NCBI RefSeq assembly: GCF_019059575.1
Contig: NW_024881530.1
Coordinates: 1,527,501-1,591,500 of the forward strand
DNA length: 64,000 bases
Source: Amphibalanus amphitrite
Taxonomy: Eukaryota > Arthropoda > Thecostraca > Balanomorpha > Balanidae
Direction of reading: 5' to 3'
The notes beneath the pieces are model-generated. The model saw only the letters and a list, made by a program, of their open reading frames with translations. It was not told the DNA's origin and searched no databases. The stretch's first letter is position 1; each line of letters starts with the position of its first letter. A program made the translations under genes and the position numbers. Shown one piece after another: positions 6,701-58,430 of the stretch.

Positions 6701-8596
6701 ATCGCCGCAGGAATAACGACAAATGGAGGCGAACTATCCCCACTGCGTGTCAGTAAACCGCTGCCGGCGGGCACGAGCACTGTTCTGAGCCCCCGGCCAT
6801 CGGCGCCCGCCCGCCGCCCAGTTATCGCCTGGAATCAGCTGTTGGCTGGCTGGGGACGGGCGCGCCGGGGCGGAGAGGCTTCGATGACGGGAGGATTCGG
6901 GCAGGGTGCCAGACAGGGTGTCATATTTCAGAGGGCGCCTCGCCGCTCAGATTTTCACACGTCCGTGCGAAGTTAGCCAGCTGAATGGAAGTAAAGGGTT
7001 GTACGGTGGAAATAATGAGAAATAGTTGGCAAATTCAGCCAGCCATTGGTAATTGTTCCTGTGCAAAGCCCTGCCCATACCTGTATCTTCGGGATCTGCA
7101 GGTAAAGGAATGAAGCCACCTTATCTCAGAATTAACAGTGCTTTTAATTTGGCGCTGCAGGCGATTTGAGGGGATTTCTCTAGTGAGCATTGCAGGAAAC
7201 TAGAAAACCAGTCGGGGCGGCGCGGACATGTGTGCCCGGGCGGCGGCCGCTGCCGGCGCGCGCTGGCGCCGCGGCCAGCGTCACTGGCTGTGGAATGCGG
7301 CGGGCGCGGAGCCCGCTGACCGCGAAAAGCCGCGAGCGAGTCGGGCCCGCCGCCGCTGGGGGGCGTCCCGGGGCCTTGGCGGGGCCGGCGGGCGTTGCAC
7401 AATGCAGCGCCGCCGCCGGCCGGCCGTTTGCCCTTTGTGTGACCGGACGCTGGACCTTGGGCGACGCCGTGGGACCGGCCGGGGGCCCCGCCGCCGGCGG
7501 CCGCGCATGCGCCGTAGGCTGTTTTCGCGGCGCCACGGGGCAGGGGAAGCGGGCCCGACACGCGGAAAAACAAGTTGAGATGACGACCGTACGGTATGCT
7601 CAGATACCGAAGGAAGTAATGCGTGGACTTGTAAAAGAAGCAGCTCTAATGAATATGTTAGTGATAAATAAAATTGAAGATAACGTAGCTCTGGCTAAGT
7701 TCACTCGCAATGAGCATAAAAAGGAATTGCAATAGTGCACCTGTCTCATGTCTGTTAATAGGCTTACTATTTATTGCAAATAGATACCAATGCCTACCTA
7801 TTGGATAGCCTTACAAGCCGTTGACAATGTGACAAATTTTGCGAGCCAGGATTATAATAACAAAATTGAAACCGTAAAATTCCACTTTTCCCGAGATAAG
7901 TCCAGGGCCCGAGTAATGAACCCATTCCTGTTCCTGGAAATGCATGGATATGCGCTGTGCACCTCAGCGTATTCTATTAACTGCACACCATCAGTATATT
8001 TAACGTTAATGCCACCACCCTTGCACCAGTAGCTTTCGAAACCTGCCTGCAACTGTGTGAACGGTGCAGAGAGACTCTTGAAGTTAATGAGCGAAACGGC
8101 GTCTGCGACACAAATTAAATTAATAGCGCAAGCCTTTTACTATTACAATACCATGTATTACACGCACATTTTCGTGTCGCCATTTTACCACAATATCCCT
8201 ATAAATACTGCCACCCGGCACAGTGCACTGTAATAACCCATTCCGTCAGCCCCTCTCCCACGCCAATCAGACCACCGAAACGCGAGCCCCATGCTCTCGG
8301 GCGGAAGTGGGTCCTTCCTGCAGTCCTGTGAACACTGAGCAAGTGCAGGGCAATCCGTCATCAAATGAGCCCCATGAGAGCCGACTGCACGTGCAGCGGA
8401 CGCAGCTCCACTGCCGCCGCCCGGGGCGGTGTACACGTCACACGTGTGCATGGGAGCTGGTCGCAACGGTTTGGGCATATGGTTCCGCCACCCTGGCTCA
8501 GCCACTTCCTCCACGAGCATGTATCTTGCTTCCATGGTCGTCTCTTTCATTTACAGTGGGGTAACGGTAGATTTTAATGATCGCTGACTGCATTTT
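6701..8596. other. Non-coding stretch; second CpG island at 7200-7560
   Basis: 7200-7560 is a second CpG-rich block, upstream of the 6344 exon on its own strand, and may belong to the same promoter region. It is open in four or more frames with no preferred one. A plus-strand frame runs to 7735, but its last 50 codons lie in AT-rich DNA and match no family I know. 7740-8220 is AT-rich with no exon seen. 8220-8560 is mixed. Confidence 0.4.
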
Positions 8597-8679
8597 CTCG
8601 CCACCTCCTCTCTCCCTTCCTCACCCTCCCTCCCTCCCTCCCTCCCTCTCCCTCTCTCTCCTCTCCCTCTCCCTCCTTC

Positions 8680-8752
<73 letters not shown>

Positions 8753-8782
8753 TCCCTCCCCTCTCTCTCTCTCTCTTTCTTC
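8597..8782. repeat. Polypyrimidine tract with (CT)n core
   Basis: CCTCCCTCC-type pyrimidine repeats pass into a long (CT)n core at about 8685-8750 and then back to CCCTCTCC. Long Arg/Glu or Ser/Leu open frames over it are artefacts of the repeat. Confidence 0.95.
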
Positions 8783-9063
8783 CAGCCATGTGCCCCCCCC
8801 CATCCCTCCTCCGTCGCTGCCGGGGACCGTTGATTGGACGCCGGCGGCGTCGGCTGCCCGCGGGCGACCAATCAGCAGTGGTCAACTGGACAGCGACGAT
8901 CGACGAGGGAGGGTCACCGACACTACGACCGACGGCGGTGGACAGCCGCTGAACGTCCTACCGATGACTGGACGTCTGAGTTTTCGTTACGTTGAAGGAC
9001 ATGACTGTTTTCAAGTCTACAATAGGCGTTTTCACGACGGCAATCTGGTACACATTTGGTGCA

Positions 9064-9256
9064 GATTAGGTGTAGATTTGGTCAAATTAGGTTCAGTGTG
9101 CCTCTTAGTAGCTATCAGCTAGGGTTGCACTAATTGCTGATATGCCTGCTTTGTTATATTATCAGAGAGTATTATCGATTAGAATACTGACATAAGTTCA
9201 TAAAATAAAGATATTTGCTGTAAAAGAGATTAGGTGCAGATTTGGTCAAATTAGGT
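9064..9256 (+). repeat. 29-bp direct repeat, two copies 164 bp apart
   Basis: GATTAGGTG-AGATTTGGTC followed by AAATTAGGT occurs at 9064-9092 and 9228-9256 with one mismatch (T/C). The DNA between is AT-rich. Confidence 0.85.
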
Positions 9257-23900: not shown

Positions 23901-23904
23901 TTAA

Positions 23905-24937
23905 CCCTCGCCGGACCTATTGGCTTTCTGCATACGCGCCGGCCGAGGGGGGGGGGGGCGGGTACGACCCCCCCCTCGCCGTTTCGCCCCTGGTGGAGCT
24001 AGCGCGTCGCGGAAAAAACGAGCGTGTGCGCCGTTACGAGACGCAGAGATTGGTACCCGATTTTAAGGTCCTAGGTCAACCGGTGACCTCTGAGGTAAGG
24101 TCAAGTGCCCCAGGGTACGGTTCAGTTTTTGGTGAATAACTTCGCAAAAAACGGCCGCAGAGCCGCGATTTTGGCAGCATCGTGTTCGCCTCGCTCAGGC
24201 GCGTCGAATGATGTACTTTTTGTTCGGGTCAGGTCAACTTGGGGTGTTGACCTCAGGTCAAGGTCAGGTCAGCACCCTAAGGTCACGAAGTAGGTCGAAA
24301 GAGGTCATGTCGCATATCATTCGATTCGGCAGGTCTTCCTGAGTCCATTGGTGGCTTTCGCGACTCGCTAGCTCAATTTGATCAAAAGTTATTGACGAAA
24401 AACGAATATGACCTTGATGACGTCATAAATGACGTCACGCAAGGTCAACATTGCAAAAGTGACGCATCTAACCTTGCAAGGAGTGCATCAAATCACGATT
24501 CTGTGTGCTTGAGATAGTTGGAGATCGTTCTCGGCGCCAGAATAGCAGTTTGAATTTTTCCCCATTGACTTATAATGGTGAGGTCACGAAAATGACCTGA
24601 CCTCATATGACCTTAAGGAAAAATCCGAGATATACAAGTTGTGAGACTCATAATGGATACTAGATCCTGCAAGTTTCATTTCCCTGTGACATCTCCTCTG
24701 GCAGTGAGGGCGTTGCGAAGTTGCGACATCTGAAGACCGTGCAGAGGTTCACTTATGACGTCATAGGTCAGTGACCTGACCTGACCCAAAAATGCGGTTG
24801 GTGTCAAAAGATCCGGCTTGGATCAAAGGTCAGGTATGCCAAGTTTCAGCTCTCTATCGCCAGCGTGTTCGGAGCTATCGCGAAAAAACCCTATGGGGGG
24901 GGGCGGCACCCGCCCCCCCCCCCTCGGCCGGCGAGGG
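23905..24937. mobile_element. piggyBac-like non-autonomous element, copy A (1033 bp)
   Basis: The element starts CCCTCGCCGG and ends CCGGCGAGGG, and is flanked on both sides by TTAA (23901-23904 and 24938-24941). TTAA duplication with CCC-starting termini is typical of piggyBac; Kolobok elements also use TTAA. Inside each end is a run-G/run-C hairpin (about 23946-23980 and 24893-24923). There is no transposase frame. The body holds about 20 AGGTCA/TGACCT hexamers, including TCAAGGTCA at 24258-24266, and three full CRE palindromes (24418, 24430, 24756). The subterminal GCGAAAAAACCCTA is shared with copies B and C. Confidence 0.85.
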
Positions 24938-24941
24938 TTAA

Positions 24942-26431
24942 CCTGAGCAAGCAATACTGGATCTGCGATTGCAACCGCGTTCTTCACGTCCCACTTTGCA
25001 TAAATTTCATACCAAGTGTATTAAACGGTCATTAATCTGAGTCTCATCTAGAGAGGCCCTTTCACAATTTCCACATGGTATTCAGATCACAGCTCAAATA
25101 AGACCATTCATTTAGTGGCGATAGTGCGCAAACCTGCACTTTTCCTAGCTAGAGAAAGCAGTTCTACGAATTCGCGGCCTCCAGGGCCGTACCGCAAGAC
25201 GGTCCTGGAGGCCGTCTTTCAAACGCAAGACAGTAGAGTGGTCGGTAGCAGCGAATATTATCACTCTTCATCCTCACAAAGAGACAAGAGTCAAACCCAC
25301 TCTGCTCTCAGTGCAAGAAGCCAATGCAGCACAACTGCAATATCGCCTTTGATGGAAACATTGCCGTTAACAAGCTCGCCTGGGCAGCCAGTAACCCGTG
25401 CCGAAAAAGGCACATCGCGCTGTCTTACGGAGAGCTCCACCATTTGATGGCTCCCGAGTAAATGAAAGATAAATACCCTCCATTGGCTCAGAAGTGCATA
25501 AGGAACGGCTTAGCTATGCGATGAGCATACGAATAGCGCTATCGCGTGACTGTCTCGCCTTACATAAAACGGCCGTCTGGTGGCAGCGCGGGACGCGCAG
25601 CGCGGAGCCGAGAGGCTGCATGCCAGTGACCCAGACTCATGCAAATCGGCGACCATTACCGCTCGCTTTATGGAAGGGTAGATAATTGTACGATATCTGC
25701 GCCGTCCTTTGTTCCAGGACAGCCGGGTAGAGCCACGATGACGTCATCGCTGCTGAGCTCTAATCAGCCAATCATAAGCCAGCCGGAGCGCCAGCGCCCT
25801 CCTATACGAGAGACGCTGCGTGACAGCCATGAAGCTGCGTCGGGACAGCTGCTGCCATCTAGGGACAGACCTCGGAACTGACCAGAGGCGGGCGGGTTCG
25901 GCGCAATGCGCATTACATCGGATGCCTTGTAGGCGAGAGGAGATTGCCCCGCCGAGAATCAGGATTTGATTTTTTTTAATATGGAGTGCACACGTTGGTG
26001 CCGATCACTTCTTCAGCGATTATGATAGTATACTTCACCCTAGACGTTCAAAAAAGGCGTCGAGCTGGCTCAGGCTGGTAGGTAAATGAACGACCCAAGC
26101 AGTAATTGCCATAATTCTTGTGAGCGCTCTCAGCTACTTGATAAAACAGAAGCTAACGGTCAATTACTGTTCCTGCATCTCTCAGGCCAAGAAGCCATTA
26201 TTACGAAACCTTTGAGGTAATTAAGGGATGCGTCCATTTACCAAAAACTTTTGCGTTATTTCGTTATGCACTCAATTAAATTCAGATATCAGTTCCCCTC
26301 CCAGTCCCTCAGCATGGGAGGATGAGAGAATAATGAAATGTCACCAAAAGCTTTGGGTCACCAAACGTTTAGTTATTGGTTGATCTTTTTCTTTGCTGCA
26401 ATGAAACCAGTATAACGCCTTTTGGGGCGAC
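24942..26431. other. Non-coding stretch
   Basis: It contains the hairpin at 25175-25214 and a full CRE at 25739-25746 in a GC-richer block (25560-25900). The rest is AT-rich. A plus-strand frame at 25115-25447 is Ser/Thr-rich and not recognised; it has no start context or splice sites that I would trust. Confidence 0.4.
25175..25214. other. 16-bp stem hairpin
   Basis: CGGCCTCCAGGGCCGT (25175-25190) is followed by an 8-base loop and ACGGTCCTGGAGGCCG (25199-25214). The arms match except for one G-U-type pair. It is too short for a microRNA precursor on its own. Confidence 0.6.
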
Positions 26432-26434
26432 TAA

Positions 26435-27084
26435 CGGAGCGAGCGAGAGGGTGGGCCTTGCACGTGCGAAATTGCGAGGGGGTACCTCCAACTGACTTGT
26501 GCACGGCACCCTACTAACTGGTCTCTAGCGATGTGCCAAATTTGGGCACAATCGGCCCAGCCGTTCTCGAGATCTGGAAGTGGCACCCTGCACGTGCGCA
26601 CGTGCAAAATGGGTCCCAACTGACTTGTGCACGGCACCCTACTAACCGGTCCCTAACTGTGTACCAAATTTGAGCGCAATCGGTCGAGCCGTTCTCGAGA
26701 TCTGGAAACGACCCCTGCACGTGCGCACGTGCAGCAGCGCCCCAACTCTGGCACATGGATATGCAGTGCCTAGTGGGTGCCTACCTACATGCCAACTTTC
26801 AGCGCAATCGGCCAAGTAGTTACCGAGATATTGCAACAATTACAAAAGTGACACCTCTTCATTTTGCACGTGGCACGTGCATAAGGGGTCACCCACATGC
26901 ATCGGGAATAGTCCAATACTTGGTAGAAGGAATGAAGCTACCCTACAAAAATTACCGCGTGTAAATCGGTCAAGTGGTTGCTGAGATATAAGCCTCGCAA
27001 AAGCGTGACCACGGCCGGCCGGCCGCTCATACTCAGAAATTTCCGTTAATCTAAGGAAAGACTACGCTCGCTTCGCTCGCTCCG
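26435..27084. mobile_element. Candidate inverted-repeat element with TAA duplication and internal tandem units
   Basis: The termini CGGAGCGAGCGA and TCGCTCGCTCCG are perfect inverted repeats of 12 bases, flanked by TAA (26432-26434 and 27085-27087). A 3-bp TWA duplication is typical of PIF/Harbinger. The interior has two clear tandem units of about 128 bp (from 26490 and 26618, each with ACTTGTGCACGGCACCCTAC) and two decayed ones, each containing a CCAAATTTGAGCGCAATCGG-like motif. Seven CACGTG palindromes occur (26461, 26591, 26599, 26718, 26726, 26867, 26874). No transposase frame is seen. Confidence 0.6.
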
Positions 27085-27087
27085 TAA

Positions 27088-30000
27088 TAAGAAAAACTGG
27101 TGTTCAACAAGCAGGGTGCCAAATGTTTGCTCGTGATTTACTTTAGGTTCTGTTAGATAGCTGCAAATGCAATGCAAGGGTGTTAGATCTGGCATATTTT
27201 TAGATTTACCAGACACCAGTGGCTTAGTATGACATATCGATCCTTGTTTTACAAAACAAAGGTAATGCACAGAACTAAGTACCTCATAACAAATGAAAGA
27301 AATAGATTAATGCTAATAGCATTGGAAAAGAATGAGGAATGTATACGTGTTAACCGAGTGCAAAGACGGCAGTTGCTTTTGTAACCGGTGCATACATGCG
27401 AGGTTTATATCCGTCACGTTATAATTAATGAGGCTGCTCGAATATGCAACAGGTACGAGCTACGAGCTGTTAACTCCGAACGATTCGCAGCAGTGCAATA
27501 TACAACAATGATACAATCTATAGTAGGATCATTTCGATCGAATATGGTTCATATCCATGCGCCATTGAGAGTGGTACTGTAATGCATCTTCCCAGAATGC
27601 AGGTGGTTATGTGCGTTAGGAGTGAAAAATTGACAGATGTTAGCCGCAAAGAATGTTAGTTAATCAACTTAGCGGTTTTGGTAAAACAATTTGCAGTGTA
27701 AGTGAATGGTGGCGTAGCGAAGTTTTTTTCGATGAGTGTTGTAATCTTAATCAGATGTTTCTCTCATTAAATTTATCTGGAGCAGCTGCATGCAGCACAC
27801 CTACTTCCTTCAAAAGCCGGATATGAACTATCTGTTCTCACAGTATTTAACAAGATTCCAGTTCACACCACGTAATAGAAATATGACCGCTATAAATGCA
27901 ATGTGAACCAAATAAATTCAGGTGCATGACCAACATCTATTTTAGCTCGGTGGGCAGAGCACATTTACGCGGCGGCTGTTTCCGCCGGCAGCACTCTCTG
28001 AGTCACGCTGCTTCCCAGGGCCGTGAGGTTGCCTTTTTCAGCACGGAACCGCGGATGATGACGCAAATGTGGGTTATAACTAGCGTAAACTCTAGTTAGG
28101 ACAACATCTGTATGTGGGTAATCCATGAGGGATGCTGGAAAAGATACAGTTTAGGTACGAGTTTCTTCTTGAAAATTGGGAAGAAACCTCTCAGTAATAG
28201 CTGCCGCCTATCCAAGTCGGAAGTCAAGGGTCCATTTACTTGGACATGGAAATCAACACCTAGCCTTAGCCCGGGGGTAGTCCGAATCGCTGCCTCCCCG
28301 GCGTTTGGCCGGCCCGGGGCGGCCTCTGGGCCGGCCAGGAAATCAGCGAGTAAACAGCAGCGGCGCCTGGGACCGTGTAATCTGACCTGACCCGGCCGCG
28401 GTCAGCAGGCCGGCCGGCGTCCCGCACCGATGCTGCACCTCTAATAATCGGTCGCCGGCGGTCTCATTAGGCGAGCACGCGCCGTCCGCTCGCGCAGCGC
28501 GGCCCCCGCCCATTACCTGTGCCCGTGTAACTCATACCCCGCACCCTAATTACCGGCGCTTTAATAATGAGCAGCGATCGAACGGATATGATGCTGGCCG
28601 GCGCGCGGCGCTGTGGTGCGCTGCGGTTTGGTGCGGTGCTGTCTGACGCTGGCTCGCGGAGAAAGCCGGGCAGCACGTGCCGTAAAAAAGACACGTCGGT
28701 AACCGGAGAGAGAGCAGCGGTGGCCAGGTCGACAGGCCATTATCGGGCCGGAGACGGCTGACGGCAGCCCGAGCCGGACGGGCGCCGGCCGTCCCACCTC
28801 GTCTGAACAGACATACCGACGGGAGCGGGTGGCGCGGATCGGTGGATATTAAACATGGGCGGCAGCCTATGCTGGGCTGCTGTGTGATGGAGGAATGCAA
28901 CGACGATCCAGTAGCATTCAGTAAGTCAGTACGGCTGCATCCTGAATTAAAGTAAAATCCGCAAAAGTGTAGAAACAACTCGGCAGAATCGTGGTCAAGG
29001 TCTACTCAGAGTCAGAGTGTTCAGAAGCTAAACTCAGGCAAAGACCACAGCCACTTCAGCGAGAACTGGACTGGCGTCCGTTCAATATCTATCCAACGGT
29101 AGCGCATCTCCCTCACTGCCTTCGGCGTTACCGACAGAAAAACTGCAGACTGACTTCTGAGGAAGCGATACCGTGCTTCAGGAGCCGTGATTGATGCACG
29201 TTATAAGTGATCGCGTGCAGAGGAACGCATCATGAGTGGTGTCGATTAATGAAATATTTGGCCAATTTCATGGTCATCTTGGTCCATGACGCATCCTTTT
29301 CAGTGCGTCAGTGACCGTCTCAAAAGATTGATGCTGTTTCACATTGAACAGGTATCATGCTTCCTTAAACCGAAGATCACACTCCTCGCCCATTCGCCCG
29401 TGCCTGCAGTGGTGCTAGTGCCTTACTCCTGATTGAAATCACCGGCGTTCGGCCAGCCCGCGGCGCATCGGTGCGCTGCGGCACAGTCTATCACTCAGGG
29501 GACTGCAGCGGCCGCGTCTGCGTACGGCGCCTAGCACCAGCCGGCGCCTGCGGCTGCCGCTGCCGCCCCGCCATCGCCGCACCGTGATAAATGCGGCGAT
29601 CACGCCGCCTTTTGATCGATGACGTAAATTTAACCGTCGCGCCGGAATGCAGCGTAAATATTGGAGCGATCCCAAGAGAGAGCCGATAGCAGCTGACTAC
29701 TCTTAGATCTTACCGAGTCTCCGAGCTAAGCTCACGCGCTCTTGTGCACAGTGCACACGTCATCTTTCGCTTAAACCTCACTTCCAGCCGAGCGGCGCGG
29801 CGGCCCGCTCGGCTGACCCACCGGCCGCCCGCCACCCTGCTCGCGAGATGGGCGACAGGACAGTTTTGGCGGTCACATCCCGCCCCCGTGTTCGACTCTA
29901 TGAGAACACTAAACTCTGTACCACCACTGATATATCGGCCGGTAGAAAGCCTCGACGGGGCGGAGTCCGGCCCGGGCGACCAATCGGCAGTTCCCACATA

Positions 30001-30152
30001 TTTACACATACATATTTACATTACTGTTCACAGCACTTTCTCACTGTTCTCCCATCACCGCGATCTGGGCGACGGCCACCTACCCGCTTATCCTCCCGCT
30101 GTCTTGATCTGGACAGAACGGACTCTTCGATCTGGTCCCGGGAACACCTGGG
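27088..30152. other. Non-coding stretch with CpG islands at 28280-28800 and 29450-29600
   Basis: 27090-28270 is AT-rich with nothing identified. 28280-28800 mixes CpG-rich words with TAATTA/TAATAAT cores and is open in several frames. A CCAAT element beside a GC-rich block lies at about 29950-29985. A plus-strand frame from ATGGGCGACAGG at 29848 crosses this area, but it merges into the antisense of the retroelement fragment that follows and is not a gene. Confidence 0.4.
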
Positions 30153-30890
30153 TCATGCGGGCGAGCGGCCGCGTAGCTGGCGGTGTGTTCGAGTCGGCGA
30201 GGAGCGCTGGATCTCCGGCGAGCACGCTCTTGATGCCCCTCCGTCTGTTGCGTGGCTGGGGCGAGGGCATGTACCGCCCGCGTTGCTGCTGCTGCTGCTG
30301 CTGCTGCTGCCTGTCGCGGAGACTCTGGGACGAGGGCATGCACCGCCCCCGGTGCTGCCGCTGCCTGTCGCGGAGACCTTGGGACGAGCCTCCCCGGTGC
30401 TGCTGCTGCCGCTGATGCTTTGTGTAGATTCGGGGACGAGGGCAGGCACCGCCCCCGTAAGGGCCCAGCCGAAGTCGGTTCGGATGGCGACTGGCTGCCC
30501 CGGTGGTCCAGCTCTCACTTCGTGCTGGATCACAGCTTCGAGAACGTTGGCACCCAGAAGCAGTTGCACTTCGCCTTTGGAGCAGTCTGGCACATCTAGG
30601 TTCTCCAGGTGACGCCATGTTTGTCGGTGCCGTTCGCTGATTCGTGGCACAGAGATGTTCATCTTCGGTACGGCCCACACTCGGATAATGTTATCCGCTT
30701 CTCGCTGGCCTCAGGGGACAGACCTTGCACTTCCATTACCAGCTTCCTGGCCACTTGCCCCCTTCCGGTACCTTGAATCGTCTGCATGCATAGTTCCTGC
30801 GGCTCGCCTGAGATGCCCAGCTTGTCTGCTAATTTCTGACTGCAGAAATTCACAATACCATCTTTTAAGCACCATCCCAAATGCAAATCA
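30153..30890 (-). pseudogene. Pao/BEL retrotransposon fragment (DUF1758 protease-like domain), frameshifted
   Basis: Minus-strand translation gives NFCSQKLADKLGISGEPQEL and later LLLGANVLEAVIQHEVR and RTDFGWALTG, the hallmarks of the retropepsin-like DUF1758 domain of Pao/BEL polyproteins. The two halves are in different frames and join at about 30660-30680, so the fragment is broken. The upstream end stops abruptly near 30890, and no reverse transcriptase or long terminal repeats are present. Downstream of GWALTG the sequence passes into a minisatellite built from the same coding DNA. This is a dead remnant. Confidence 0.9.
30258..30470 (-). repeat. Minisatellite (about 54 bp, four units) with a (CTG)n run
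   Basis: Units begin GGGACGAGGGCATGCACCGC near 30258, 30328, 30382 and 30434. The last is the retroelement coding sequence for AVPALVPES, so the array grew out of that frame. A pure (TGC)n/(CTG)n run fills 30283-30309. Confidence 0.8.
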
Positions 30891-33129
30891 ACGAATCAAT
30901 TAGCAATATTTTAAAGGTGGGCACTTTGATTGCAGTAATTACGACGAATAAATAGCCGTGTCGGTGGCGGGCGGCGGGCGGACCGCGCGGGCACGCCGGC
31001 TTCTGCCGCTGAGCGCCATGACCGGCACAAGTGCAGTCCGCAGACTGAGTGGTGCCGGTTCAGCCCGTGGCACTGCCACCGGCGGACACGACCTCACAGA
31101 CCGCCGAGCTGGTGCTGACAGAGGAAGTGAGCCAAAGGCGACGACAAAATGAAGAGCCGCAACTTGCAGGCGGTCCGGGACGGCGGGTGGTGAAGTGGAG
31201 AGAGAAGCCGGCTGCCTGGCTCTCACCCGGTCGCATAGTTCCCGGCAGGCAGCCCGGCACGTGATTCCCTGGGACAGGGTCTCCTGGGGAGCCTGTCGCC
31301 TCGCAGCGGGCAATGATGAGAGCAGAGGAGCCGCCACACAGCGCGGTGCAGCAAATTTAATCGGTTTGCAGTGAGCGCCTGCCGCTCCTTTGGCAGTCTC
31401 AGTCGGCAGCGGGCCCAGCGTCACGAGAACGCGGTCGGTGGCGGCGGTGCGCGAACCAGCTGCCGCGGTGGTCGCAGCCACAAGTGGCGATCGGTCATTT
31501 GGCTCACAGTTGGGGTTGTGCACGGCTGTGCACAGCCAGTGCACAGTTGGTGCACTCGGCCCGCTGTGCACGGCGCCAAGAGTGGCGCGTGCGGCGCCGG
31601 AGGCCGGCAATTTGCCTCGAATATCTCGGCCGCCGACTGTGCGGCCGGCCGCCGCTCCGCCGCCAAATCGCGACCCCGACCGGCCTATAAAATACGAGAG
31701 CTCGTTTTAATTGGACAACCGCTGACGACGGCTGATCAGGAATTATCGTTATTACGCGCCGATGCAGTCGGAGGGGTGATATTAGCCCATTATCCGCTCA
31801 CAGATTCAACTGGGGGGCACGTTTTGACACTGCGCGCGGACAGGCCAGCTACCGAAAAAACGCGCAGCCGATTGCCTGGCAAAACGGTGTCGAGTAGACC
31901 GGTCTACGACTGACGTGGGCGATGATTTTCGTGCTAAAAAGCTGTTAGTTTTCTGTCGAAATGTCTGTGGTCAGAGGGTGTGAAATCTACACCCAGGAGA
32001 AACCCGAGCAAACCGCTGTCTGGGAGAGCGGCTGACACAGCCCAGCGCCACTTTGTCGCAAATTAGAAAGGATTGGAGATGTGAAATGACTACGATCGGG
32101 GACAGATCTGGCGCTGCGCCGCGCCGCCCGCAGCCACGGAGCCTCTCGATCGGTCGTGGTCCGCCACCGGAGCGGCCATTATATCGGAATGTGTGTAATA
32201 CATCACGAGGAATTAAAGTAATTTGGAGCGAGCCCGTGTCATTGGCTCGGCCCCGCACGCGGGCCATAGCGGCAAATTATGAGAAATGGCCGGCCCATCT
32301 CGGCGCCGTGTGTCGTTTCCGACCGGGCATACCTCGGCGCCGGAGAAACGGTAAAGGCCAGTCGGGACACGGGGAGCTCCTCTCTAGGACTGCTAACGGT
32401 AGTCGGTATACCCGCCAGAGCTCTGTCTCCATCGCGAAAAGCTACTTCGTTACACAAGTGCGCGCCCCCGACACAAACCCGAGTCTAGGGGGACTCGCAA
32501 AGCATGAAAATTCAAAGGCAATCTGCCCTCGGCCTTATTTGCATGCCACAAGCCATTTTCTTGCCAAAATCTGCATAAAATATTCCGTCGGGAAGTTAAT
32601 GGCCGTCCGTGTCACTGGCAGGGACTGATGCGGCCCGGACTGAGTGCGCAGGCCTCCCGCGCCCTAATGGCGACCTAGCAGGGTTAACGGCGACCCCGTC
32701 CAGCTAACGGCGTCAGGAGACGAGTGGAGGCCGCTGCTGACCGACGGTCAGAACCACAAACATTCGACAGCCAGACATAATTGACCAGTCGGCGGTTTTG
32801 GTTTTTGCGCGTCGGCGTTTTTCGGGTAATGAAATGGTAACACCAGCGCGGTGCAACTGAATGGCGCCTGATGGACACGCAACGGCCATTACATCTCCCA
32901 GCGCACTCTCTCAGACACATACAGACAGACAAACCTGAGCGGGGGGAGCCGGGTGCGTCTGAGAGGCCTCAATTAGAGTGCGCTGGCCGGCGCGGATGCC
33001 TCGGCGCCACTCTGGGGTGGTCTGACGGAATTAAAGTGGACGTTTCCGTGCTACTGGGGGTGGTCACTGCTCTCCACCAGAACGCATCACAAACGGAAGG
33101 TCATCAGCCGACAAACGGCCGGTACTCAC
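30891..33129. other. Non-coding stretch with CpG island 30960-31700 and enhancer-like 31690-32660
   Basis: 30960-31700 is GC-rich and open in many frames. GTGCAC palindromes cluster at 31517-31573 (five copies). 31700-31830 and 32080-32640 alternate AT cores (TAATTGG, TTATCGTTATTACG, ATTAAAGTAATTTGG) with CpG words and look like regulatory DNA; that is inference. No exon is supported. Confidence 0.35.
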
Positions 33130-33174
33130 GTACAAACGCCCCTCCTGCGCATGCGCCCCGGACCGGTCGCTTAC
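33130..33174 (-). other. Candidate recursive splice site with 45-nt exon
   Basis: On the minus strand TTTGTGTCTTTCCAG|GTAAGC joins a strong acceptor directly to a strong donor (junction between 33175 and 33174). A branch-like CTAAT lies about 22 bases before the junction. Forty-five bases on is a second donor, GTAC|GTGAGT (GT at 33129-33128). Acceptor-plus-donor juxtaposition followed by a downstream donor is the layout of recursive splice exons in long introns. If kept as an exon it is 15 codons in phase 0 without a stop (VSDRSGAHAQEGRLY). It fits a minus-strand intron running from the 50-56 kb candidates. Confidence 0.4.
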
Positions 33175-35350
33175 CTGGAAAGACACAAACATAATTAGGA
33201 GCGCGGAGTGAGATGAGAGCGGCGCGCTGTGTGCGCCAGAGCACGCCGCCTTCTGGCCAGATCAGAACCAAACACAGACATCCATGAGGCAGACCGGCCC
33301 GGTCGACAGTCGGGTCGAATGAATCAAAGACAAAGGCCGTCGGGCGGCCAGCGGGGCCCATTAGTGGAGCGGCGGTCATTAGTAGAGCGTCCGTCTTTCC
33401 CTGTCGGCGGTCCCCGACACCGCGCTCTCTCCGTGCTCTCTGTGCTCTGCCGGGTGGTTTTTGTCGCCTGGTTATTAGCGCACGGGAGGAGAATCGGTAA
33501 GCCATCTCGGGTGGCTCGTGCTCGTGCTCTGGGGAGGGAGAGGTGTCGTGCTGGGTGCTCCCGAGGGGCGTCTCATTAGCGCTACCCCACCCGTGTGATG
33601 TGCCCACGACGGCTGTCATCGGTGATCGTAACTGGATTTTCAGCTGGGTGGTTACAGGCTGCTTTCCGATGAGTTTTTTCACTTCTGTGGGCATAATTGG
33701 ACACGAGACAGCAAAAAAGAAACAAAAAAAATGTTGACATAATTGTCAACACCGATCTTATACTCGTATGTCATGAAGTGCGGAAAAAGCAGGCGGTCAC
33801 AGCATTTGCATGACCTCAGCTGTAAACGCTATGAAATCAACTGTAAATAAGGTGGGTTACCTACCCCTGACGTCTGATTAGACCGAAAATGTTCTTCGTA
33901 ACGTTTGGCAAATTTTCCTTTGTAGCCGGTTATGCAGTTGTAAAGTCACCATGTTCTATAGCCAATGAACTCCAAAGAATAAACCCTAAACCACTCAACA
34001 CATACGCAGTATACATGTAAATGCCCGTATAACATGTTATCAAACCTTGCAGTTGCGCTTATGTATATCCAACGAGGAACTCATTCCAAAGTACGGTCTA
34101 TTGTGCGGTTCATTTACCAGACTACCGCTCTCCTACTTCATAAACATGACCTGTCTGGGCGCCGGTTACATGTCAGCAGACATACGTGTAAGATTTTGAT
34201 CAGATTCCTCGATAGCCTCTCTCGCCCGTCTGTCATAGTCCTCACTCTGACGGATAACTCGAGAAATCATCACTCAGCTCAGGGGTGAGAGGAGCAATTC
34301 ACAAGTTTCGTGTAGAGTGATGGGGATGAATGATTACAAGGTCAGGAGTCAGGACTGAGAACAATAGCAAAAAGAAGCAAAAAAGCGATCGTTTTAAAGA
34401 AAACAAAAAGTTTCGAGAATCTTATCGGATAAAATGTAACATGAGGAACGCACTTTTTATGTTCGACATGAATATGAACAAAACATGTAATCTTAACCAA
34501 ACGTTAATTTCATGTAACGAATGATATGGTAGCACCGCAGCACACACTTGTTCATCCCAAATAATCTTTAAGTACCTATGTCTCTGTAATATAGTTCGGT
34601 CAAATTGACGTGGTCATCTCCATCGCTAAGCCATGGTCCTCCAGTGCAGCTCTACCGGTGGTCACTTCTCTGCTTTTACCCACCCCTCCACGTTACGCCC
34701 CCGCGGGGCCGCGGTCGGTCACCGGCCGGCCCGTACCTCGGTGTTTTTTTCCCGGGCAGTGATTGACAGCGGCCGTCGGTCGCCCGTGTAAACACTGACC
34801 GCACTAATTAAGTCGGGCCTGATGGCTGCGTGCCCGTCTCAGTAATAGGCGCCGAGCTGTGCCGTGCGCCATCAGACGCCATTACCGCCGCAGCCGCGCC
34901 GCCACCGCCGCAGACGCGCCAGAAAAACCGCCGCCGGTGACAAAAACGGGCCGTGACCTGAGGTCGGAATCCGCGGGACTGGAAACGTCTTGAAGGCGTA
35001 CAATGGTGTCAGGACAAGGCGTTTTGTCGAGTGTATGCTGATTGCTGAGGAAGGTAGGTGACAAGCTTCCAGGTGTGAGAATACTGATGATGTTGTATGA
35101 TAAGCATAATTGATAGCAATTTATGATGTGGATTGAGCGGCCGACACATACTCAAGCTTTTTTACCTTTAAATATTCCTCAGAAGTCAGAGACCGACCTA
35201 AGTACAACGATACACTAACTGCCAGGTTCTATATTTAAATAAAAGCACATGGATCAAATTATACGTGCCAAATAAAGGTACCTATGATACCTTGGAATAA
35301 ATACGTACCTTTCTAAGACATCAGCACAAATTAATTTTACCGCTAACACG
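33175..35350. other. Non-coding stretch
   Basis: 33200-33680 is GC-rich with frames on both strands and no clear coding choice. 33690-34640 is AT-rich, with nothing identified. 34680-34960 is a CpG-rich block with TTAATTAAG-type cores nearby. 35060-35350 is AT-rich. Confidence 0.4.
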
Positions 35351-35354
35351 TTAA

Positions 35355-36239
35355 CCCTCGCCGGCACAGGCCATTTTGCGTCCTTCGACGGACGGCACAA
35401 GGGGGGTACGACCCCCCCTCGCGTTTGGCCCCTGATCGAGCTAGAGCTTCGCGGAAAACACGAGCGTGTTGCCCGTCACGAGAGGAAGCCGATGATACCC
35501 AATTTTAAGGTCCTAGGTCATCGGGTGACCTTCGAGGTCAGGTCAATGACCCGAAAACCGGGAAAATCGGGACCTGTTAGAAAGTCGTAAAGTGTGGCTG
35601 TTAAGCGGTTTCCGGGGTGCTAATCACGAATATCGTGTTAGTTTTGATCACAGATGATGTCTTTAAGCATTTAGACCAGGTCGGGTCAGGTCAGGTCAGG
35701 TCAACCGGTAGGGGTTGTGACGGGTATTTGTAATACGTGTCAACCGCCTCTGACGGCTACGTAACATATTACGAAGGCACCAAAACTACTTCGTAAATGT
35801 TCAAATGGTTGCTAAATTCGAATTCAGATCCAAAAACTAGTCTAGAAACATGTAAACTCGAAAACGTGAACCGAGGTCACCCGAGGTCACCAAAGGTCAA
35901 TAACCTGACCTGACCTTCAGGTGACCTTGACACCCACCCTAATGTATGGGAGTAACACAAAATCACATGTTTGAACGTTTGAAACCACAAAAAACTTGCA
36001 AACGCGCGGCTAATGCGAGCCGACATACGCCGAATCGCGATTCCGGCCAAACATGGTCTCGGAAAAGAGGTCACAGGTCAAAGGTAATTTGAGTTAGGGT
36101 CATGAAATTTTCAGAGTAGGTGTAAAATTAATTAATGCGAGAGTACTGAAAGTTTCGTCGCGATCAGCCGCTTTTTACGCGAGTTATTCGCGAAAAACCT
36201 TAGGGGGGGTTGCATCACCCCCCCCTGTGCCGGCGATGG
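35355..36239. mobile_element. piggyBac-like non-autonomous element, copy B (885 bp)
   Basis: It starts CCCTCGCCGGCACAGG and ends CCTGTGCCGGCGATGG (one substitution in the terminal repeat), flanked by TTAA at 35351-35354 and 36240-36243. It shares with copy A the order of features: terminal repeat, run-G/run-C hairpin, GGTACGACCCCCCC, TTTTAAGGTCCTAGGTCA, and GCGAAAAACCTTAGG before the right hairpin. About 15 AGGTCA/TGACCT hexamers occur, including a run with 5-bp period, (AGGTC)n, at about 35684-35703. No protein frame. Confidence 0.85.
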
Positions 36240-36243
36240 TTAA

Positions 36244-44129: not shown

Positions 44130-44319
44130 CAAATTTTCCCCTGACCTTGTACGGGGTTTGTGACCTGGTGACCTGACCTGAAAAGACTAGAGATCTGAAA
44201 TTTTCAGGACAAGTGCCAAAAGGTTGCCCCAGAGGTATGCCAAATTTGAGCGCCGCCGTTTTTACGTTATTTGTGAAAAACCTTAGGGGGGTGCATCAAC
44301 CCCCCTCACCGGGCGAGGG
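44130..44319. mobile_element. piggyBac-like element, copy C (right end only)
   Basis: The right end CCGGGCGAGGG is followed by TTAA (44320-44323). GTGAAAAACCTTAGG and a run-G/run-C hairpin precede it, as in copies A and B, and four TGACCT hexamers lie further left. The left end was not found; the boundary given is approximate. Confidence 0.75.
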
Positions 44320-44374
44320 TTAACTAACATAATACATTGTAGTAAAGGCTACCCGAACCGGTAATGATTCTTGC

Positions 44375-45490
44375 TTATTCTGTATTCTGTATTCTGTATT
44401 TATTAGATCGCCAACAGTCACATCGCCCTTTTACTGACGAAGTCAGTTACACACAAGCAATACACAAGATGACAGTACCTACATAAGAATAAACGTTCGA
44501 TAAAACAAGATCGATAAAAGTAAAGCACGTGAGTATGATGTAAAAGATCACATGAAAGTGCCTTGCGTAATTGTGAAGCCGATAGCGCGTGTTTTAAATG
44601 AGTATGAACTACCAGTAAAGAAGTCGGTGGTCGGGTCATGGAGCAAGAATGAGTTGCATGCAGCTGGGATCCTGACAAACAAACATCGTTGCACAGTGTT
44701 CACTCGCGCGCGCGGTGTGTTCCACAGAACCGTGCTCCTCGTCCTCCGTGCCGGTACGGCAAGACCGAACGCACCGACTAACACATCATTGTCCAGCTTC
44801 CCACGATGAATGTGGAATAAAAACATGATATCGTACTGTATGAATCTAGACTTGATGGAGCGCACTTTAAAATGTGAGAGTAAAACCAAGTAGTCCAGGT
44901 CGTCAGAGCGCCTGTCAGAGTAACGAGCTAACCACATCAGAAACTTGTGCTGCACTCGCTCGAGCCTTGTCAGGTGAGATGCAGCCGCTCCAGCCCATAT
45001 GACACAGCCATACTCGATGATTGAACGCACATGAGCGTAGTACGTACACAACATGGTTTTGTGATCAAAGGCGGCTCTGCTGTAGCGTCGAGACAGTTGC
45101 ATACTACGGATAATCAGTCCTAACATCCGGTTTGCCTTGGCAACAGTCTGGTCAACGTGGGCGGCAAACGTAAGCTTGGAGTCGAGGATTACTCCTAGGT
45201 CTCGGACTTCGGATCGGCGCTGTAGGGTAGTGCCATCTAGAGTGTATGTGGCAAGGATGGGAGATTTTCGTAGGGAGAAGGAGATGACATGACATTTGGT
45301 AGGATTTAATTTTAGACGCCATGCAGCAGACCAGGTGGAGAGACGGTTGAGGTCGGCCTGGAGCAGTTCTGTGTCAGAGTGGGAGGTGATGCGGTGGTAG
45401 AGTTTGATGTCGTCTGCGTACATGATACAGTTGGTTTGGATAAGGGTGGGCAGGTCGGCGGTAAGACAGATGAACAAGAGGGGACCATTT
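44375..45490 (-). mobile_element. Non-LTR retrotransposon (jockey/CR1-like), 5'-truncated
   Basis: Minus-strand translation over about 310 residues is uninterrupted from GPLLF near 45488 to a stop near 44548. It contains the reverse-transcriptase catalytic box as YADD (IMYADDIKLYH), then LSTWSAAWRLKLNPTKC and LGVILDSKLTF, the usual order for the palm-thumb part of jockey, CR1 and related clades. All of the endonuclease and the first half of the reverse transcriptase are missing, as expected of a 5' truncation. The 3' end is a short tandem tail with unit ACAGAAT (44376-44400), typical of elements that end in a microsatellite. The open frame suggests a fairly recent copy. I did not find a clear target duplication. 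Confidence 0.9.
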
Positions 45491-45548
45491 GTTTAGCTCA
45501 GCCGTATTTAGAGATTTAGCTGGCTTTGTCCATGAATAACAATATCGG

Positions 45549-56264: not shown

Positions 56265-57480
56265 AACCGCTTGGAAAGCACGCAGGTGAACCACTCGTGT
56301 TTATTGTTTACTTACCGATGCTTACGCAATATCGTGGTTAGAGTAGCAAAGGTGTACTCGTAAGAGTGAGCTAATGAAGGTGCTTTCCCTGCTTGGACTA
56401 CGTATGTATTAACTGCTGTTGTCAGCAGGCTAGCTTTATATCCAGCTGCAGCCTTCCATCAAACTTAAAGGGCTAACAAGGTAAGCAGCAACACAGCCCC
56501 CTGGGATACCAGTGACCATTAGAGAACCACACTAAACTGGCGCTATTTTCTACACACGCGCGCACGACGGATACAAAAAATCACCTATCCTTTCATTATC
56601 AAACATTTATGCGCCAGCTTCGTAGACCCACGCGAAAACTACTAGAGATTTCTTAATTGTCAAATTTGCATGTTTGGGGGCCGATTTGCCCGGCGGGTCA
56701 ATAAACAAGTGATTAGAGGAGACACCACATAAATATTCATCACCAGACCCAGGCGTCTGCCGTCGAGACACACGACCAAGCTCGCGTCCACGGTTTGTTG
56801 ACTGCCGTCATCGATACGTGTTCTGTCTGGAGAGAGACAGGTGTTACGCGGCGGGGGCGTTTCTGGCGCATCGCGAAGTTTCTGGCGCGTTGAATAGGAG
56901 CGATCGTTGGCGAAGGTGTAGGGGAAAGGTCATCGATCGATGCGTGGGAGGTGAGGGCAGTCGTCTAAGGAGACAGGGCAAGGAACTTCAAAGGTGCGGC
57001 AGGTCATCGTCATCGAAAGGCATGAAGTTTAAACGGGAGCGACGTGCTGTGAGTGGGTGTCATTCATGCGAACGTATCGCTCGTAGTGGTGTGAATAAGA
57101 CATATCAGTAGATAGGAAGTACTGTACGAGTGTATCAGAAGTTTGCTTTCTTAGCTTCGTATATCCATCGTAATTATCTTCAGATGTAAAATAAAAGGCG
57201 TAAGCGAAAGAGAAAAAAAAGTAGAATGTCACCGTGCAGGGAAGACTGCGCATCCCTAATACCGCGTAAACGGCTGAATTGATGCATCTAACCAGGCCTT
57301 TTCATTCAGCCCAACCAGCCATGAAACCTCATTTTCACGGCACCGCAGCGGTTGCCCACAAAAATGTGACGCTATTTCTGGACAGCCCATCACTCCACAC
57401 TGCATACCTTTTCGGACCACTACCCCATCGATCCACCACGTTCGTTGTGGGCTTGCACCGTACAGCAGAGAGGGGAAAGG
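56265..57480. other. Non-coding stretch
   Basis: Mostly AT-rich or mixed. 56750-57060 has a plus-strand frame with basic composition and no splice support. No exon is supported. Confidence 0.4.
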
Positions 57481-57484
57481 AAAG

Positions 57485-58430
<946 letters not shown>

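Follow-up and report, generated by a model that had tools for sequence, protein, structure and literature searches.

The hexamer AGGTCA is the textbook half-site of nuclear receptors, and a locus at which it is packed into short mobile elements raises the question of what reads it there. We studied such a locus in Amphibalanus amphitrite, a stretch of 64,000 nucleotides (RefSeq assembly GCF_019059575.1, contig NW_024881530.1, positions 1,527,501 to 1,591,500; hereafter the window) in which two elements, copies A and B, had been noticed from the sequence alone. It was suggested at that time that they belong to a TTAA-flanked, piggyBac-like family loaded with AGGTCA/TGACCT, which could scatter hormone-response modules through the genome (below, the original prediction). 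On the basis of the present analysis, the arrays of this hexamer are very probably a conserved, end-anchored feature of one piggyBac clade, that of the Trichoplusia ni (T. ni) transposon.

Two young subfamilies of short elements

A recount found exactly 20 AGGTCA/TGACCT hexamers in the 1033 bp of copy A and exactly 15 in the 885 bp of copy B, the same numbers as first given, and both copies have TTAA on both sides. The whole window contains 72 such hexamers, 33 of which lie outside copies A and B and a partial copy C. In the 807.6-Mb assembly, the terminus CCCTCGCCGG occurs 20,018 times (reversed control, 4,233) and TTAACCCTCGCCGG 13,981 times (control, 6); TTAA thus precedes 13,981 of the 20,018 termini, and half of that number gives approximately 7,000 element-equivalents with perfect ends. 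From the inward-facing CCCTCGCCGG pairs among the first 100 listed places, we then took 20 loci with termini 867-1036 bp apart, a sample in which elements with broken termini are unrepresented. Together with copies A and B, they formed a long subfamily, L (13 copies of 1020-1036 bp, 93.7-99.2% identical to its consensus), and a short one, S (9 copies of 867-902 bp, 91.8-98.4%). TTAA was present on both sides of 16 of the 22 copies and on at least one side of 20. The similarity of the copies to their consensus suggests, as far as sequence can tell, that L and S have moved recently.

Individual copies contained 16-22 hexamers in L and 13-16 in S. Because these counts and the positions, which are closely alike between copies, recur throughout the sample, the hexamers are part of the family consensus. 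The L and S consensuses contain 21 and 17 of them, respectively, compared with means of 0.51 and 0.60 and a maximum of 2 in 100 dinucleotide shuffles of each; these means refer to the subfamily consensuses rather than to copy A or B individually, and they agree with the chance level of about 0.5 per copy proposed before. Absence of the half-sites from the family consensus had been named as an observation that would speak against the idea, and the opposite was found, since the sites are kept in both consensuses. The two copies had also been said to share termini and internal order. CCCTCGCCGG is indeed found at both ends of copy A, whereas the right terminus of copy B reads CCATCGCCGG, one base off; the internal order is common to the two copies in the spacing of clusters and not in sequence, since A and B align only over terminal stretches of ~150 bp and ~60 bp.

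The TTAA target-site duplication, the 5'-CCC inverted termini and a DDE_Tnp_1_7 partner place the family in the piggyBac superfamily. It is also short, non-coding, homogeneous in length, high in copy number and a deletion derivative, as is typical of miniature inverted-repeat transposable elements (MITEs). Copies A and B are therefore non-autonomous, MITE-like piggyBac elements of two young subfamilies, in line with the original prediction. A search of the assembly for an empty allele of copy A returned only the window itself.

Autonomous relatives and their transposases

A profile search of the genome with PF13843 gave at least 116 matches. One of the loci found in this way (C778, hereafter autonomous element B) combines an S-type left end, a transposase and a right end. 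Because S aligns to this locus in five pieces at 95-96% (S 1-193, 189-408, 393-491, 692-742 and 739-895), S is, as judged from the alignment, mainly an internal-deletion derivative of an element of this type; for approximately 200 bp of S (491-692), no match in C778 was detected. Copy B itself matches both ends of autonomous element B in four pieces at 89-94%. The derivation of L is less certain than that of S, as only its ends are shared. Two fold-back inserts (219 and 263 bp), each containing long inverted repeats, also lie in the right end of C778 (L077). Moreover, TTAA elements are nested at internal TTAA sites of members of this guild of elements (C778:130786-131708, C702:33975-34969, L030 and L043); in C778 and L030, the site used is the TTAA adjacent to the AGGTCA block that comes first in S and L.

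Three further related lineages were identified, namely L059/L061/L062 (99.1-99.2% to each other), C702 and L075, the last of which lies on the same contig as the window; the transposases show 31-63% identity. PF13843 was also found in L061 and L064. Among proteins of the Protein Data Bank (PDB), L061 and L075 matched T. ni piggyBac (2.2e-78 and 1.3e-56, respectively), with alignments that extend through the C-terminal cysteine-rich domain (CRD), more closely than piggyBat (3.4e-30 and 4.8e-21). By this similarity, both are members of the T. ni-type clade; L056 and L064 were assigned to it by likeness to L061 and L075 only. In contrast, the one control transposase tested was closer to piggyBat (1.5e-27) than to T. 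ni piggyBac (5.5e-10), its C-terminal CRD remained unaligned, and the tails of the control transposases showed, by eye, a different cysteine pattern. A PDB search with the isolated CRD gave no match, and an AlphaFold model of a clade transposase was unusable (mean pLDDT, the predicted local distance difference test, 40.8). Capture of a zf-C4 domain by the transposase was also considered and rejected, as this domain was absent from L061 and L064, the two proteins scanned, in which Pfam detected the DDE domain and two sub-threshold hits.

Distribution of the arrays among piggyBac elements

The four autonomous elements of the clade (A to D) contain 12, 28, 33 and 33 hexamers, numbers reached by none of 100 shuffles (means, 1.8-3.1), and most of these hexamers (8/12, 22/28, 27/33 and 30/33; 87/106 in total) lie within 750 bp of an end. 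For comparison, we used autonomous elements from other piggyBac lineages, that is, those with both ends matched among the first 30 transposase loci, one per lineage. These six elements have 0, 1, 4, 2, 2 and 4 hexamers, approximately the shuffle level; the two with four hexamers were matched by 7 and 11 of 100 shuffles. The motif is thus found at both ends of the clade elements and is scarce centrally, while elements of other lineages remain near the shuffle level. A split of 4/4 versus 0/6 has a probability of 1/210 under random assignment if shared ancestry is ignored; transposase loci without matched element ends are outside this count.

Arrays were also present in five of six MITE sequences, including a relative of S, CCCTCGCCCG, and in two more families visible from one end; in the MITE CCCGCGAG, they are confined to the right half. 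A de novo scan for TTAA elements, in DNA preselected for this family and for transposases, yielded 25 candidates in 5 families, 4 of which had arrays. Since the presence of arrays follows the clade while other lineages are without them, the distribution suggests that they are a trait of the clade as such. A second feature is a G-run/C-run palindrome near the tips, seen in the ends inspected, those of element A, of L and S and of the CCCTATTCC, CCCGCGCCC and CCCGCGCCCTGC families; in S and element A, it lies ~15-45 bp in, near the position of the CRD palindrome of T. ni piggyBac.

A lattice of approximately 165 bp

To describe the positions of the arrays, we grouped the hexamers of 17 element ends into clusters, omitting the S ends as near-duplicates of element B. 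For multi-hit clusters, the best period measured from the tip was 165 bp (R = 0.76), and for all clusters 167 bp (R = 0.64); neither was reached in 3000 random placements. Two nested inserts in one end were then allowed for by shifting positions arithmetically, and the 16 cluster-bearing ends gave 164 bp (R = 0.80). The eight autonomous ends gave 162 bp (R = 0.76), and when these were reduced to one per element, the four remaining ends gave 164 bp (R = 0.84); in each of these three tests, 0/4000 random placements reached the observed value. Almost all intervals between clusters (24/26) fell within 143-191 bp, with a mean of 166.5 bp and a standard deviation of 12.9 bp, the other two being 88 and 505 bp. 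In 15 of 16 ends, the first multi-hit cluster was centred 155-190 bp from the tip. It should be noted that the ends are related to one another, as 40 of 136 pairs could be aligned on the plus strand at E 1e-4; 6 of these alignments exceed 150 bp, the longest reaching 272 bp. The lattice tests are thus not fully independent, although the result holds even for the smallest subset, that of four ends from four autonomous elements. These data describe a structural rule, in which one hexamer is placed on a lattice tied to transposon ends and is kept in families that are otherwise largely different in sequence.

Composition and conservation of the arrays

AGGTCA was the top hexamer in the 17 ends (167 observed versus 6.2 expected in 11.7 kb); GGGGGG/CCCCCC was the second most enriched. 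After masking of perfect sites, four single-base variants were enriched, namely ACGTCA (4.3-fold, from TGACGTCA), GGGTCA (2.7), AGGTCG (2.4) and AGCTCA (2.0, 5 sites). The other 14 ranged from 0.4 to 1.8, including AGTTCA at 1.3, and the double change GGTTCA stood at 1.0. Adjacent pairs within 12 bp numbered 109, the commonest types being direct repeats (DR), everted repeats (ER) and inverted repeats (IR) in the order DR(-1) 29, DR4 18, DR0 13, ER1 9, DR5 5 and IR1 4, with 3 DR1 pairs in the same tally. The commonest close pair is therefore the overlapping form AGGTCAGGTCA. Two details of the original prediction were also recovered, a run with a 5-bp period in copy B and TCAAGGTCA in copy A. 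The latter had been taken as an extended site of FTZ-F1/ERR type; the flanks of 164 sites contained no 5' extension of FTZ-F1, ERR or HR3 type.

We also compared divergence within the 22 copies (13 L and 9 S), using sites defined on the consensus and random hexamer sets for the p values. AGGTCA positions differed from the consensus less often than other non-CpG positions, both in L (0.83% versus 1.85%; one-sided p = 0.018) and in S (2.16% versus 3.75%; one-sided p = 0.032).

Genome-wide excess of AGGTCA

AGGTCA occurs 1,943,084 times in the genome compared with 378,140 times for the reversed control, an excess of 1.56 million, and AGGTCAGGTCA 258,952 times (control, 1,178). Same-strand AGGTCA pairs are 8-fold more frequent at 156-186 bp (575,351; control, 6,733) than at 241-271 bp (72,026; control, 6,561). 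A palindrome resembling the cAMP response element (CRE), TGACGTCA, accompanies many clusters and is enriched 12-fold (207,243 versus 17,092). Its pair distances at the first 100 listed places peak near 155, 330, 460 and 825 bp, and the cosine score of 0.67 at 166 bp was above the highest value among 2000 null draws (0.51); as members of repeated families, these places do not count as independent. Perfect-ended copies of L and S (~7,000 copies with 15-21 sites each) explain less than one-tenth of the AGGTCA excess, and other families of the same guild presumably carry much of the remainder.

Possible readers of the arrays

Our preferred reading, held with moderate confidence and based on comparison of sequences, is that the clusters may be cis-acting subterminal arrays of the T. 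ni-like piggyBac clade, kept for a role in transposition. Arrays at both ends, on a lattice of ~165 bp from the tip, would be retained because they act in cis when the element moves. The candidate reader is the element's own transposase, most likely its C-terminal zinc domain, the CRD. Several transposase dimers could load along several hundred bp of each end, one cluster per lattice step, and the loaded dimers might help to pair the two ends. The CRD dimer of the T. ni transposase recognises an internal palindromic repeat whose half-site is TGACGCATG, and TGACGTACG has been named as a cryptic site, according to the available text of that report (PMC7351741). TGACCT and TGACGTCA have TGAC in common with TGACGCATG, and this match, together with the likeness of the clade transposases through the CRD, makes the element's own transposase the first choice of reader; that it is the main reader seems to us an evenly balanced proposition. 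The cis role, the transposase as reader and the reason for the 165-bp pitch are all three what we infer. If the transposase does read the arrays, they would represent a mode of piggyBac end recognition new to the literature compared here, and a natural test of how ends are found on chromatin.

Several observations weigh against this reading. The TGAC match to the CRD site amounts to only four bases, and the arrays start only ~150 bp from the tip and extend past 650 bp. According to the accessible parts of the reports, T. ni piggyBac works with ends of 35 and 63 bp (PMC7351741), piggyBat works with ends of 153 and 208 bp, and an extra inner site lowers piggyBat activity (PMC11707139). The comparison of four with six elements is a small sample; the four have a common ancestry, and at 2.7-3.3 kb the six controls are shorter than the clade elements (4.0-5.6 kb). 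Clusters also occur in the flanks of L040 and L053, two loci whose transposases are of other lineages; these clusters possibly belong to neighbouring elements, and the loci are outside the 4-versus-6 count because their ends are unmatched. One MITE family of equal size, L068, lacks arrays altogether. As regards the lattice, one MITE end has no cluster, one interval measures 505 bp, and the left end of element A has one multi-hit cluster only.

The arrays might instead be read by host nuclear receptors (for example, USP/RXR, EcR, HR3 or COUP-type), either for expression or opening of the elements in the germ line or as scattered hormone-responsive modules, which we consider rather unlikely. The AGGTCA half-site of receptor response elements is present, and binding by receptors is a possibility. 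The host has 77 zf-C4 matches, each exon being counted separately and many matches coming as two with the same score; two of these loci are presumably HR3/ROR-like. The DR4, DR5, DR1 and IR1 pairs and the mild enrichment of GGGTCA could fit receptor use, and the divergence of AGGTCA sites, about half as frequent as that of other non-CpG positions, could also be caused by host use. A precedent for a mobile family that spreads such sites is available in Alu, as described in the available text (PMC1785376, PMC3252374). However, the presence of arrays tracks the transposon clade although all piggyBac lineages meet the same receptors, and the arrays stand at both ends of transposase-bearing elements, not upstream of the gene alone. 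The commonest close pair (29/109) is the overlapping AGGTCAGGTCA, which two receptor subunits cannot share on structural grounds; moreover, the 5' extensions of FTZ-F1, ERR and HR3 type are missing from the 164 sites and the variants AGTTCA and GGTTCA are unenriched. The hormone-response module first proposed was thus not established, and we demote it as the primary explanation because presence follows the clade and the commonest close pair overlaps. Receptors as the main reader remain unlikely in our view, the probability left over by transposase and receptors being split between a relic and other readers; if receptors do read the arrays, much of the AGGTCA in an animal genome may have been supplied by a single guild of transposons. 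A relic origin, in which the clusters are functionless remains of an old tandem duplication with a unit of ~165-190 bp, appears quite improbable. Tandem similarity is visible at the right end of element A (187-bp shift, 76% over 465 bp), at the left ends of element C (151-bp shift, 77% over 188 bp) and element D (173-bp shift, 70 bp), and in shorter pieces at 153-166 bp shifts in two MITE families, and the alignable blocks between ends indicate that part of the regularity is common descent. On the other hand, 12 of 17 ends have no detected tandem similarity, yet wherever such an end bears an array, its hexamers are unbroken and follow the lattice. Decay should yield single-base variants of AGGTCA, most of which are unenriched, and AGGTCA positions diverge from the consensus less than others.

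A further explanation cuts across these readers and does not exclude them, namely that the lattice serves as a chromatin ruler, with one cluster per nucleosome repeat and sites in successive linkers where they could be read on packaged DNA. We regard this as a tentative possibility. The mean interval and its spread are of nucleosome scale and too variable for strict helical phasing; however, tandem duplication would also yield a fixed pitch, and, in the profile around the clusters, G+C increases no more than modestly, at the cluster position. A more speculative combination, which we hold to be somewhat doubtful, is that the clade measures its ends in nucleosome-sized steps, with clusters in linkers for transposase loading, and that, as its word is identical to the receptor half-site, the spread of these elements has brought the genome ~1.5 million extra AGGTCA sites, enough to titrate or rewire its receptors. 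It is very improbable that the overlapping pentamer (AGGTC)n is telomere-like. The pentamer is the same as that of the (TCAGG)n primer of Tribolium telomerase, GGTCAGGTCAGGTCA, in the available text of the report (PMC7274783), whereas the present genome is rich in (TTAGG)5 (5,916 + 5,730) and contains far fewer (TCAGG)5 (627 + 579; control, 71 + 38). In the DNA examined for runs, almost all were 2-3 units long (176 of 2, 23 of 3, 2 of 4 and 1 of 5, overlapping loci being counted twice), and 80 of the 109 adjacent pairs are outside the pentamer register. On the basis of (TTAGG)5 abundance, short runs and pair register, this candidate was rejected as the main cause.

Some additional observations concern the receptors and the telomere repeat. 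At one zf-C4 locus (L069), which we take to be an HR3/ROR-like receptor, 21 AGGTCA were found in the surrounding 3.2 kb, possibly in an intronic element; a second such locus (L070) has 2. The fact that many nuclear-receptor exons appear twice with equal scores suggests that the assembly has kept alternative haplotypes or contains recent duplications. (TTAGG)n is the common arthropod telomere repeat, and interior runs of it were seen far from contig ends (C1:81583, C1:1317346, C1:3003883 and others).

Features of the window

The features of copies A, B and C are listed in Table 1. The four hexamers of copy C lie ~141-178 bp from its end, and the left end of this copy was not found. Right of copy C, a minus-strand open frame at 44548-45492 resembles, by eye, the reverse transcriptase of a retrotransposon without long terminal repeats. 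Long (CT)n/(GA)n microsatellites at 8571-9122 and 57256-57970 give rise to spurious open frames.

Table 1. Elements, flanks and hexamer clusters, in positions of the window
Feature	Position	Strand	Remarks
Copy A, long subfamily L	23905-24937	minus relative to the consensus made here	98.5% to L consensus
TTAA flank left, copy A	23901-23904
Terminal inverted repeat CCCTCGCCGG, copy A	23905-23914	+
G-run/C-run palindrome near left end, copy A	23945-23977		from sequence
AGGTCA cluster 1, copy A	24073-24103		~169-199 bp from left end
AGGTCA cluster 2, copy A	24231-24307		contains TCAAGGTCA at 24258-24266
AGGTCA cluster 3 (middle), copy A	24409-24447		two hexamers with TGACGTCA palindromes in between
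AGGTCA cluster 4, copy A	24581-24613
AGGTCA cluster 5, copy A	24765-24832		24765-24782 and lone site 24827-24832
G-run/C-run palindrome near right end, copy A	24895-24923		from sequence
Terminal inverted repeat CCCTCGCCGG, copy A	24928-24937	-
TTAA flank right, copy A	24938-24941
Copy B, short subfamily S	35355-36239	minus relative to the consensus	94.5% to S consensus
TTAA flank left, copy B	35351-35354
G-run/C-run palindrome near left end, copy B	35401-35418		from sequence
AGGTCA cluster 1, copy B	35515-35545		~161-191 bp from left end
AGGTCA cluster 2, copy B	35688-35703	+	three hexamers in 5-bp steps (35688, 35693, 35698)
AGGTCA cluster 3, copy B	35874-35927		10-bp steps, then inverted group
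AGGTCA cluster 4, copy B	36068-36080	+	~160-172 bp from right end
G-run/C-run palindrome near right end, copy B	36203-36226		from sequence
TTAA flank right, copy B	36240-36243
Copy C, right end of third related element	44142-44323		ends at 44319, TTAA 44320-44323

Comparison with known systems

No report of AGGTCA arrays or of a 165-bp lattice was found among the matches listed in the open-access literature, an absence that is weak evidence as subscription papers lie mostly outside it. Hermes, a hAT element, differs from the present elements in superfamily, target-site duplication and transposase, and we know of no 165-bp lattice in Hermes-like elements. The likeness lies in subterminal transposase contacts for transpososome assembly, as given in the available text (PMC10368747). 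Alu also spreads nuclear-receptor half-sites, as mentioned above, but it is a retroelement, whereas the present elements are DNA transposons with ~15-21 sites per kb on a lattice anchored at their ends.

Within the piggyBac superfamily, the closest system is T. ni piggyBac (6X67/6X68), which has the same TTAA target and CCC...GGG ends and a DDE transposase alike through the CRD (in the two of four lineages tested). Its CRD site has a TGAC core in the accessible text (PMC7351741); in contrast with its short minimal ends, the present elements have multi-site arrays over ~150-700 bp per end on a 165-bp lattice. PiggyBat, from Myotis lucifugus, likewise has several transposase sites on one end, with an inner site that modulates activity, but its CRD fold and motif are different, and the available part of the report describes three site groups within a 153-bp left end and no lattice (PMC11707139). 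PiggyBat was also closer than T. ni piggyBac to the array-less control transposase tested. In Acropora, the CMITE elements are piggyBac MITEs with an internal region conserved across families that have different terminal inverted repeats, for which a role in transposition was suggested; they are ~100 bp long with a single 75-bp core, and no repeated motif or lattice is described in the accessible text (PMC2872659). Pokey of Daphnia and its mPok MITEs, also TTAA piggyBac elements, have 2-5 repeats of ~200 bp in the 5' non-coding region; these come from the ribosomal DNA spacer and lie upstream of the transposase only, and the available text mentions no AGGTCA array (PMC3849761).

MITEs of piggyBac type whose interiors are conserved (the coral CMITEs) are known, as are piggyBac elements that carry 200-bp repeats (Pokey), whereas the lattice is apparently undescribed and its nucleosome-scale pitch striking. 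The elements of this locus are ordinary in kind, being young piggyBac MITEs, and unusual in design.

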